DNA of 39,138 nucleotides from positions 1 through 39,138 of the forward strand of contig JAFMJP010000006.1 in NCBI GenBank assembly GCA_017853375.1, read 5' to 3'. Positions 24,905-28,370 of this stretch are shown here, piece after piece. The translations under genes and the position numbers were made by a program. The first letter of the stretch is position 1. Each line of letters starts with the position of its first letter. Source of the stretch: Actinomycetota bacterium (GTDB lineage Bacteria; Actinomycetota; Acidimicrobiia; Acidimicrobiales; Ilumatobacteraceae). The notes beneath the pieces were generated by a model. That model was not told where the DNA came from. It saw only the letters and a program-made list of their open reading frames with translations, and made no database searches.

Positions 24905-26047
24905 ATGAGCACACTGACACCCGAAATCGTTATTGAGGCGCTACGTCCCGTTGAAGATCCCGAGTTGCACCGTTCGATCGTGGATCTGAACATGGTTCGT
25001 GACGTGATGATCAACGAAGGTGTGGTCTCGCTCACCGTCACGCTCACCATTGCAGGTTGTCCGTTGCGTAACGAAATCCAAAATCGCGTGAACGGTGCAA
25101 TTCGTCCACTGTCGGGCGTACGCGACGTGCAATTGAACTTCGGAGTCATGACGGACGACGAGCGTGCTGCATTGCGGGAAAAACTTCACGGCTCACCTGG
25201 CGCCACTGCCGGAAGTGCTCCGGCGCAGGGACACGCACAGGGTCGGGCCATCTCGTTTGCGCAGCCTGGTTCCAAGACGCGCCCGCTTCTCATTTCGTCG
25301 GGCAAGGGCGGAGTCGGCAAGAGCAGCGTCACCACCAACTTGGCGGTCGCCTTGGCGGCGGCGGGCCACACGGTTGGCGTGGTGGACGCCGACATCTACG
25401 GCTATTCAATTCCGCGCATGCTTGGCGCCGATCGTGATCCCGTCGTCATCGATCAGATGTTGCTTCCGCCGGAGAGCTACGGCGTTCGCTGCATCTCCAT
25501 CGGGTACTTCGTTCCGGAAGGTCAAGCGGTGGTGTGGCGCGGTCCGATGCTGCACAAGGCTTTGGAGCAGTTCCTGACCGATGTGTATTGGGATGAGCCG
25601 GAGTTCTTGCTCATCGACATGCCACCAGGTACGGGTGACATCGCATTGAGTTTGAGCCAGTACCTGCCGCGTGCCGAGGTGTACGTGGTGACCACTCCAC
25701 AGGAGGCCGCACAAAAGGTGGCTCGACTTTCGGCGGCGATGGCCAAAAAGGTGAACATGACCGTGCGAGGTGTCATCGAGAACATGTCCTGGTTCACCGG
25801 TGACGACGGCAAGCGCTATCAGTTGTTCGGCGACGGCGGCGGAAAGATGCTGGCGGAGGAACTCGGCGTTCCGTTGCTGGCCCAGATTCCGCTGGTGAAC
25901 CAGCTGCGCGAGGGCGGCGATGACGGCAAGCCGATAGCGGCGGTTGCCCCACAGAGCGAGGTTGGTCAGATTTTCGCCGAACTCGCCAAGAAAATCGTGG
26001 AGATGCGTCCCAAAAAGGTCTTCAGTCAAGCGCTGAAGGTGAACTGA
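24905..26047 (+). CDS. mrp: Mrp/NBP35-family Fe-S carrier ATPase (N-terminal MIP18-like domain)
   Basis: LRPVEDPELHRSIVDLNMV; ISSGKGGVGKSSVTTNLAVALA; MPPGTGDIALSLSQYLPRAEVYVVTTPQEAAQKVA. Confidence 0.95.
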   Translation: MSTLTPEIVIEALRPVEDPELHRSIVDLNMVRDVMINEGVVSLTVTLTIAGCPLRNEIQNRVNGAIRPLSGVRDVQLNFGVMTDDERAALREKLHGSPGATAGSAPAQGHAQGRAISFAQPGSKTRPLLISSGKGGVGKSSVTTNLAVALAAAGHTVGVVDADIYGYSIPRMLGADRDPVVIDQMLLPPESYGVRCISIGYFVPEGQAVVWRGPMLHKALEQFLTDVYWDEPEFLLIDMPPGTGDIALSLSQYLPRAEVYVVTTPQEAAQKVARLSAAMAKKVNMTVRGVIENMSWFTGDDGKRYQLFGDGGGKMLAEELGVPLLAQIPLVNQLREGGDDGKPIAAVAPQSEVGQIFAELAKKIVEMRPKKVFSQALKVN

Positions 26048-26065
26048 CCTGACACACTGGTGACC

Positions 26066-26302
26066 ATGGACCTACGTATCGGAGTCACCCACTCACCACG
26101 AGACATCAGTCTCGAGATCGAGAACGACGAAAAGTCGCGCCTTGCAGCACACAAGGCGGTGGAAGAAGCACTCGCCGGCAAAGTGGAGGTGCTGTGGTTG
26201 ACGGACAAGCGTGGACGTGAAGTCGCCGTACCAGCCGAAAAAATAGCCTTCGTGGAATTCGGCGCCCCGGACGGCGAGCGTCGACTGGGGTTCGGAGCCT
26301 GA
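26066..26302 (+). CDS. DUF3107 family protein
   Basis: MDLRIGVTHSPRDISLEIENDEKSRLAAHKAVEEALAG…KIAFVEFGAPDGERRLGFGA. Confidence 0.85.
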   Translation: MDLRIGVTHSPRDISLEIENDEKSRLAAHKAVEEALAGKVEVLWLTDKRGREVAVPAEKIAFVEFGAPDGERRLGFGA

Positions 26303-27255
26303 CGCTTCGAGCGTTACTTTCCCGACGACTCGTCTTCGTCACGGGAAAAGGTGGCGTCGGCAAGTCCGCCGTTGCTGCGGCATTGGCGAAGGTCGCCGCC
26401 AGCCAGGGCAAGCGTGTACTCGTGTGCGAAATGGACGACAAAGGTTCGCTCGCCGCATACCTGGGACGAGGCGACTTGGCGTTTGCGCCGACGGAAGTGT
26501 CGCCAAACGTGTTCGCCATGGCGATGAACACCGAGGACTCTTTGCGGGAGTACATTCGCCTGTTCTTGAGAGTGCCGGTGATCGGCAGCTTGACGCCACT
26601 TTCGCGGATCTTCGACTTCGTTGCCAATGCGGCACCCGCGGTGAAGGAAATTCTGGCGGTCGGAAAGCTGTGCTACGAGGTGCGCGAACGCAACTACGAC
26701 ATCGTGATCGTGGACTCTGAAGCAAGCGGACACTTCGTTGCCCAGGTTTCGGCGCCGGATGCCCTCGCGACCTTGGTGCGAATCGGCATCGTGGCCGACC
26801 AAACCAAGTGGATGAGCGACCTTCTGCATGACCCTGCGGTATCCACCGTGTTGGCAGTGGTGACTCCAGAGGAGATGCCCGTGGTGGAGACCATCGAGCT
26901 ACGCGACCGTTTGGCAAGGGCTACGCCGATCGACTTCGCCGGCGTCGTCATCAACCGGATGCCGACGGCACTCGTGGACACGGCGCTCCTGACGGCAGCA
27001 CGCGAGATGAGGAGCGCGGCTGAAGCCGGTGGTTCCGGTCCTGCCGTCGGCTCTCTGGCATCAACCATCGAAGTGTGTGAGTGGTTGCTCGAGCGTCGTC
27101 GCAATGCCGAACATCACGCAAATCGCCTGGCCGATGCCTTGGAGTTGGGCAACGTGGAAACTCTCTCCGAAGCAGCAGCCGGAGCCCACTCGCCCGAATT
27201 GATCACCGAACATCTGGAACACGAGATGCGCCGCATCGTGAACGAGCACGCATGA
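26299..27255 (+). CDS. ArsA/Get3-like ATPase, first of a tandem pair; proposed CTG start
   Basis: Frame reads (L)TLRALLSRRLVFVTGKGGVGKSAVAAALAKVAASQGKRVLVCEMDDKGSLA; Walker A lies upstream of the first ATG/GTG/TTG (TTG 26383); CTG 26299 overlaps the DUF3107 TGA as CTGA. Confidence 0.82.
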   Translation: MTLRALLSRRLVFVTGKGGVGKSAVAAALAKVAASQGKRVLVCEMDDKGSLAAYLGRGDLAFAPTEVSPNVFAMAMNTEDSLREYIRLFLRVPVIGSLTPLSRIFDFVANAAPAVKEILAVGKLCYEVRERNYDIVIVDSEASGHFVAQVSAPDALATLVRIGIVADQTKWMSDLLHDPAVSTVLAVVTPEEMPVVETIELRDRLARATPIDFAGVVINRMPTALVDTALLTAAREMRSAAEAGGSGPAVGSLASTIEVCEWLLERRRNAEHHANRLADALELGNVETLSEAAAGAHSPELITEHLEHEMRRIVNEHA

Positions 27256-28370
27256 ACCCGAAACTCGACCCTCACGTGCACGACATGCTCGGGCATTCCA
27301 AGATGATCATCATTTGCGGGCCCGGAGGGGTCGGCAAAACCACTTCGGCTGCGGCGCTCGGCGTAGTGGCTGCGCGACATTTTGCCAAGCGTGTCCTGGT
27401 GCTGACGGTGGACCCCGCACGCCGTCTTGCAACCGCCTTGGGAATCGACGCAATAGGTAATGCCGAGGTGCCGGTGGATCTCCCCGACGCACAAGGAACC
27501 CTCAGCATTGCAATGATCGACACGAAGGCAAGTTGGGACGACATGATGCGGCGTCATGCCCCCGATTCATCGACGTGCGACCGCATATTGAGCAACGACT
27601 TGTACAAGACCTTGACTTCACGATTCGTGCACAGTCACGACTACGTGGTGACCGAGCGGTTGTTCGATGCTCGCGAAAGTGGAAGGTACGACCTCGTGCT
27701 GGTGGATACGCCACCGTCGCGAAGTGCGCTGTCCGTGCTGGATGCTCCTCGACGAATGGAGCAGTTCTTCTCCAGTCGACTCCTGAAGTTGTTGACTGCT
27801 CCAACCCAATCCCGATTGTTGTCCTTGGCGTCACGTCCCTTCTTCCTCGTTGCCGACCGAATTCTCGGTGCTGCTTTTCTCAGCGACATCGCAGAATTCT
27901 TCACGCTGTTTCGCACCATGGAGGCGCCGATCGTGTCACGTGCGCGTCGCGTCGGCACGTTGTTGTCCGATCCGGCGACTTCATACGCGGTGGTTACCAG
28001 CCCGGAGCCGGTGGCGATGCGGGAAGCGAAGTTTCTCGTCGATGAATTGCGGCGGAGAGACCATCGACTCGAGGTCGTCGTGGCCAACCGATTGGTGCCT
28101 TCGCGACTTGCCGCCGGGGCCGCCAACCGCGCCGACGTGCTGGTGGGTGCCGGGCAGGAGGGCGAAGGAAGCGACGACCCGTCGACCGTTGCCGTACGTC
28201 GGGCACTGGCCGGCGCCGAACGCGAGATTGCGAGCATTGCCGACCAGCATGCGGCCGCACTCGCACGCATCAACCAGTGGGGTAGCCGGGTGTTGACGAG
28301 CGAGATGCGCGGCGGAGACATCACCGACGTGGCGTCGCTGGTGGCGCTCGGCGAGTCCCTTCGCGGCTGA
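27252..28370 (+). CDS. ArsA/Get3-like ATPase, second of a tandem pair
   Basis: KMIIICGPGGVGKTTSAAALGVVAARHFAKRVLVLTVDPARRLATALG; YDLVLVDTPPSRSALSVLDAP; ATGA overlap. Confidence 0.92.
   Translation: MNPKLDPHVHDMLGHSKMIIICGPGGVGKTTSAAALGVVAARHFAKRVLVLTVDPARRLATALGIDAIGNAEVPVDLPDAQGTLSIAMIDTKASWDDMMRRHAPDSSTCDRILSNDLYKTLTSRFVHSHDYVVTERLFDARESGRYDLVLVDTPPSRSALSVLDAPRRMEQFFSSRLLKLLTAPTQSRLLSLASRPFFLVADRILGAAFLSDIAEFFTLFRTMEAPIVSRARRVGTLLSDPATSYAVVTSPEPVAMREAKFLVDELRRRDHRLEVVVANRLVPSRLAAGAANRADVLVGAGQEGEGSDDPSTVAVRRALAGAEREIASIADQHAAALARINQWGSRVLTSEMRGGDITDVASLVALGESLRG

Follow-up and report, generated by a model that had tools for sequence, protein, structure and literature searches.

The window, a stretch of 39,138 nucleotides from an actinobacterial genome of the family Ilumatobacteraceae (class Acidimicrobiia), contains a gene cluster in the order Mrp – DUF3107 – BagA-like – BagB-like – PdtaS-like kinase (Table 1). 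The product of the gene preceding the two ATPases was identified by its match to DUF3107 (PF11305, 70.9 bits against a cut-off of 27), and DUF3107 adjoins BagA class-wide. Read from the CTG codon discussed below, the first ATPase matches ArsA_ATPase (PF02374) with 93.6 bits at a gathering cut-off of 24.3 and has an intact Walker A motif; among solved structures, the best match is Rv3679 of M. tuberculosis (PDB 6bs3 chain A, E=1e-21). This protein scores 131.2 bits with the BagA model NF053622, under the equivalog cut-off of 400 bits, and the downstream ATPase 245 bits with the BagB model NF053621, under the cut-off of 521. Because both stay below their equivalog cut-offs, we refer to them as BagA-like and BagB-like. 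Judged from its sequence, the first would be a Get3/ArsA ATPase of the BagA (Rv3679-like) type, to be called BagA-like only. With BagA/BagB (Rv3679/Rv3680; PDB 6bs3) the pair shares its adjacency, fold family and order, but it differs in these scores (131 versus 400 and 245 versus 521) and in adjoining genes for Mrp and DUF3107.

Table 1. Features of the DUF3107-BagA junction and of the further loci compared; locations without a label are positions in the window.
Feature	Location	Strand	Remarks
Mrp/ApbC-type P-loop protein	24905..26047	+	upstream gene; PF10609 and PF01883
DUF3107 gene	26066..26302	+	ATG 26066, GTG 26060 as alternative; stop TGA 26300-26302; PF11305 match
GGGG, weak Shine-Dalgarno candidate inside DUF3107 codons	26287..26290	+	8 nt upstream of CTG
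CTG, predicted start codon of BagA-like ATPase	26299..26301	+	only start candidate; conserved; reading-frame switch there
BagA-like Get3/ArsA ATPase	26299..27255	+	318 aa from CTG; PF02374, PDB 6bs3 chain A, NF053622
TTA at codon -10	26314..26316	+	TTG in some relatives; no start in window
Walker A GKGGVGKS	26344..26367	+	lost with translation from TTG 26383
BagB-like ATPase	27252..28370	+	ATG 27252 in ATGA overlap with BagA stop; NF053621
CTG start of TypA/BipA	L330:1495-1497 (G000 contig C22); also L324-L332		CTGA overlap
CTG start of RarD-like gene (G001)	L252:15654	+	CTG in CTGA
CTG start of ABC-3 permease gene (G001)	L256 ~2336	-	CTG in CTGA
CTG start of SpoU methylase gene (G001)	L274 ~7053	-	CTG in CTGA
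CTG start of PriA gene (G001)	L274 ~13794	-	CTG in CTGA
Initiator tRNA with A29-U41	L231:1498-1574	-	also L380-L383, L433-L435

The reading frame of the BagA-like ATPase is closed upstream by an in-frame stop (TGA 26218-26220), and no ATG, GTG or TTG occurs between this stop and the Walker A motif. The first canonical codon, TTG 26383, lies 3′ of GKGGVGKS, so that no canonical start precedes these essential N-terminal residues. An earlier note, made from the letters of this DNA alone, had described the stretch in the same terms, and the window sequence bears it out. The CTG at 26299 overlaps the TGA of DUF3107 (CTGA, -4 nt), and the only other near-cognate codon between the upstream stop and the Walker A motif is ATT 26257. 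A table-11 list of open reading frames with ATG, GTG and TTG starts yielded a truncated ATPase of 290 amino acids, just as the note had expected of automatic gene callers.

For comparison we used 122 distinct DUF3107-BagA junctions from the class Acidimicrobiia, with the records labelled Ilumatobacteraceae representing the window's family. A canonical start is lacking in codons -32 to -9 relative to the P-loop in 34 distinct family junctions, and each of them (34/34) carries an in-frame CTG between -4 and +10 nt from the DUF3107 stop, either as CTGA (-4), as TGAYCTG (+1) or at +2, +3 or +10 nt; where two CTGs occur, the one nearest to the stop was chosen, which favours short gaps. A wider count adds junctions where a TTG or GTG at codon -10 might serve as start, or where the only start lies within DUF3107; a CTG at -4 to +10 nt then fits 55 family rows, and the start is canonical in 34, mostly with gaps of 6-112 nt. 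The other sampled families of the order and class almost always use ATG, GTG or TTG, which generally lies 13-20 codons ahead of the P-loop; there are three exceptions at most outside the family, L067, L078 (start ambiguous) and L027 (family not assigned). The note had also suggested inspecting this junction in related genomes, and the orthologous codon is indeed GTG in L115 (GTGA) and ATG in L143, with the distance to the P-loop unchanged. In many relatives, in-frame stops precede the CTG by a few codons, and an upstream start is therefore ruled out. The BagB start is canonical in all relatives read at the same loci.

On a tree of the ATPase, the start state changes at least eight times, and CTG goes together with a short stop-start gap in every independent pair that differs in gap. 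Because only four of these independent pairs are well supported, which is below significance, we regard this association between sequences as suggestive only. In L016, L017, L049 and L053 the CTG is lost (CTA, with TAG just before it and TAA as DUF3107 stop) and TTG is found at codon -10; these four have likely switched their start. Two further records deserve mention: L048 (G085) shows one in-frame TGA within the BagA match, and L009, a record titled Bifidobacterium breve, lies on a contig clearly of the window's genus (72% identity, same junction) and is probably a mislabelled bin. We also considered selection for CTG acting on the C of CTGA. A C precedes the DUF3107 TGA in 58 of 59 other family junctions, whose start may lie elsewhere, even though neighbouring third positions vary, and it is common in the sampled genes generally (126 of 254 TGA stops). 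Since C is frequent before TGA regardless of start use, it is by itself no proof of selection for CTG, and we dropped this argument.

Exactly the same spacing of 44 nt between the DUF3107 stop and the P-loop is shared by 30 sequences, in which the substitution phase could be followed across the junction. In codons -19 to -16 the inferred changes follow the DUF3107 frame (15/20, p=2e-4), whereas in codons -14 to -11 they fall on third positions of the ATPase frame (23/33, p=2e-5). The phase thus turns from one frame to the other exactly at the CTG, where the coding signal of the ATPase begins. This bears on a start at the Leu codon -10 or further inside, with the CTG as a mere spacer Leu codon. 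Initiation at codon -10 would retain the P-loop, and some relatives do keep a possible alternative start there, which counts against the CTG: TTG in some g1 and all g4 genomes, GTG in three g13 genomes. However, this codon varies freely among relatives (TTG, TTA, CTG, CTT, CTC or CTA) and reads TTA in the window, the codons separating it from the CTG evolve as coding sequence, and the stop-to-P-loop distance is invariant in the 30 sequences. We consider such an internal start very improbable.

The overlap of two frames at a stop codon, combined with the absence of a canonical start, would also fit a programmed frameshift or stop read-through that joins DUF3107 to BagA. Yet the relative frame of both genes takes all three offsets, with the stop at -35, -43, -44, -45, -46, -49, -53 and more positions from the P-loop. 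Many relatives have a separate ATG or GTG behind gaps of 6-112 nt, and several genomes show in-frame stops just upstream of the CTG. Nor is a slippery sequence evident at the DUF3107-BagA junction. Because the relative frame differs among relatives, we exclude a frameshift fusion, and joined translation of any kind appears hardly credible. The least probable explanation is an assembly error or a pseudogene, the true sequence holding a canonical start or an intact N-terminus. The window's genome assembly is fragmented and 87% complete, but tens of independent assemblies show the same CTGA, and the open reading frame is intact and conserved. The junction as such is kept in dozens of independent assemblies, beyond chance. 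Neither a sequencing error nor a DUF3107-ATPase fusion, the two findings that the earlier note had named as fatal to its reading, was thus encountered, and its proposal of CTG 26299 as the ATPase start gains support from the relatives. On this comparison, CTG 26299 is the predicted start codon of the BagA-like ATPase and is kept across relatives, and instead of reflecting a sequencing error, CTG seems to be a real start codon that this lineage maintains.

In bacteria, CTG is regarded as a start codon that is hardly ever used. The initiation machinery strongly disfavours CUG, and IF3 discriminates against non-canonical start codons such as the AUU of infC. Two reports count against a CTG start: CUG reaches 0.86% of AUG activity in E. 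coli and makes up 0.024% of start codons in bacteria (PMC11497404), and a start-codon selection in mycobacteria did not enrich it (PMC4633059). On the other hand, overlapping NTGA pairs are commonly coupled via reinitiation (PMC6728339, PMC12548453), and when RRF is lacking, 70S ribosomes that stay on the mRNA restart at non-canonical codons (PMC2268962). At the junction studied here, stop and start overlap (CTGA) or, in the family's other CTG cases, lie within -4 to +10 nt. The best explanation, to which we assign a probability of about 0.84, is that translation of the BagA-like ATPase starts at CTG 26299, reached by termination-reinitiation from DUF3107. A ribosome ending DUF3107 at the overlapping TGA would remain on the mRNA, step back one base and restart at CUG, the nearness of the stop compensating for the weak codon. 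We infer that the initiator tRNA would decode this codon as fMet and that DUF3107 and BagA would be made together, BagA probably at a low level; coupling by termination-reinitiation is the likely mechanism.

Alternatively, initiation at the CTG could occur de novo, driven by a Shine-Dalgarno sequence, with DUF3107 ribosomes helping only by unfolding the mRNA. Anti-Shine-Dalgarno pairing is favourable in the window (-5.9 kcal/mol), and its median upstream of CTG starts is -4.55 kcal/mol compared to -1.1 when the windows in these genes are shifted as a control. However, pairing is weak in several relatives (-1.7 in L061), the GG-rich stretch forms codons for the conserved LGFG at the DUF3107 C-terminus, and in every family case the CTG lies between -4 and +10 nt from the stop. 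The GGGG that the earlier note had put forward as a Shine-Dalgarno sequence is present at the distance given, as a weak candidate for this role. Taken together, de novo initiation is unlikely, albeit the most serious competitor of reinitiation.

A scan for exclusive -4 overlaps in other genes covered about 1 Mb of family sequence and 200 kb of an outgroup; codon-bias gene calling was unreliable in the very GC-rich G019 and G300 and was not used. G001 of genus g2 gave ATG 10, GTG 8, CTG 7 and TTG 0, the window-genus genomes G009 and G048 together ATG 23, GTG 7 and CTG 3, G082 GTG 7, ATG 6 and CTG 0, and the outgroup G212 ATG 5, GTG 9 and CTG 0. Four of the seven CTG overlaps of G001 are convincing, those of the RarD-like, ABC-3 permease, SpoU methylase and PriA genes, since their Pfam domains begin upstream of the first canonical codon. 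Within genus g2, the CTG of PriA recurs in three genomes and that of RarD in four. All eight readable window-genus genomes, the window's own included, have a CTG start within CTGA for TypA/BipA, and residue 1 read from this CTG aligns with residue 1 of a solved BipA. In genus g4, TypA (L333-L340) mostly has no ATG, GTG, TTG or CTG between the nearest in-frame stop and the N-terminus; here the conserved start candidate is ATT or ATC, at the codon where L350-L352 have ATG. By these sequence criteria, CTG in stop-start junctions is a recurrent predicted start in the family, beyond a single gene, which goes further than the earlier note. Searches of open-access literature yielded no account of CTG starts for this family.

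The initiator tRNA of the window's genome has the pairs A29-U41, G30-C40 and G31-C39. In all seven window-genus genomes read, A29-U41 replaces the first of the three conserved anticodon-stem G-C pairs, and all three pairs are G-C in the initiator tRNAs of the 60 other genomes read, from within as well as outside the family. According to a review, the three G-C pairs are present in all initiator tRNAs (PMC4611024), and artificial change of the middle pair abolishes discrimination against CUG (PMC11497404). The A29-U41 initiator tRNA may therefore ease CTG starts in the window's genus. As a family-wide cause of CTG use we rejected it: g2, g6, g18 and g25 use CTG at bagA with a standard tRNA, and the altered tRNA is therefore not needed for these starts. 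Of the remaining initiation machinery, the IF3 gene is cut at a contig end, and 16S was not found in the window's genome assembly. Tentatively, and with rather more doubt than confidence, we suggest that reinitiating ribosomes in this family choose their starts loosely, CTG being ordinary in overlaps of bagA, typA, priA, rarD, the ABC-3 permease and the SpoU methylase, in the window's genus alongside the A-U initiator tRNA.

Like the IF3-discriminated AUU of infC, the CTG described here would be a weak codon kept by evolution before a conserved protein, but its occurrence is bound to a stop-start overlap and extends to several unrelated genes within a single actinobacterial family. The junction has the same four-nucleotide geometry as the NTGA overlaps with termination-reinitiation, including mycobacterial RTGA, described in PMC6728339, PMC12548453 and PMC4633059. 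It also shares with such coupled pairs an upstream coding sequence that extends to the start, and the neighbouring BagA-BagB junction is ATGA. It differs in its CTG start, whereas those papers, in the parts available, treat ATGA/RTGA or unspecified NTGA; CTG was inactive in the mycobacterial tests (PMC4633059). Gene callers restricted to ATG, GTG and TTG cannot pick CTG, and CTG conserved at coupled junctions before TypA, PriA and other proteins would lead to systematic truncation in annotation. The family would also offer natural material for testing whether codons rejected by a freshly initiating 30S subunit are tolerated by a just-terminated ribosome.
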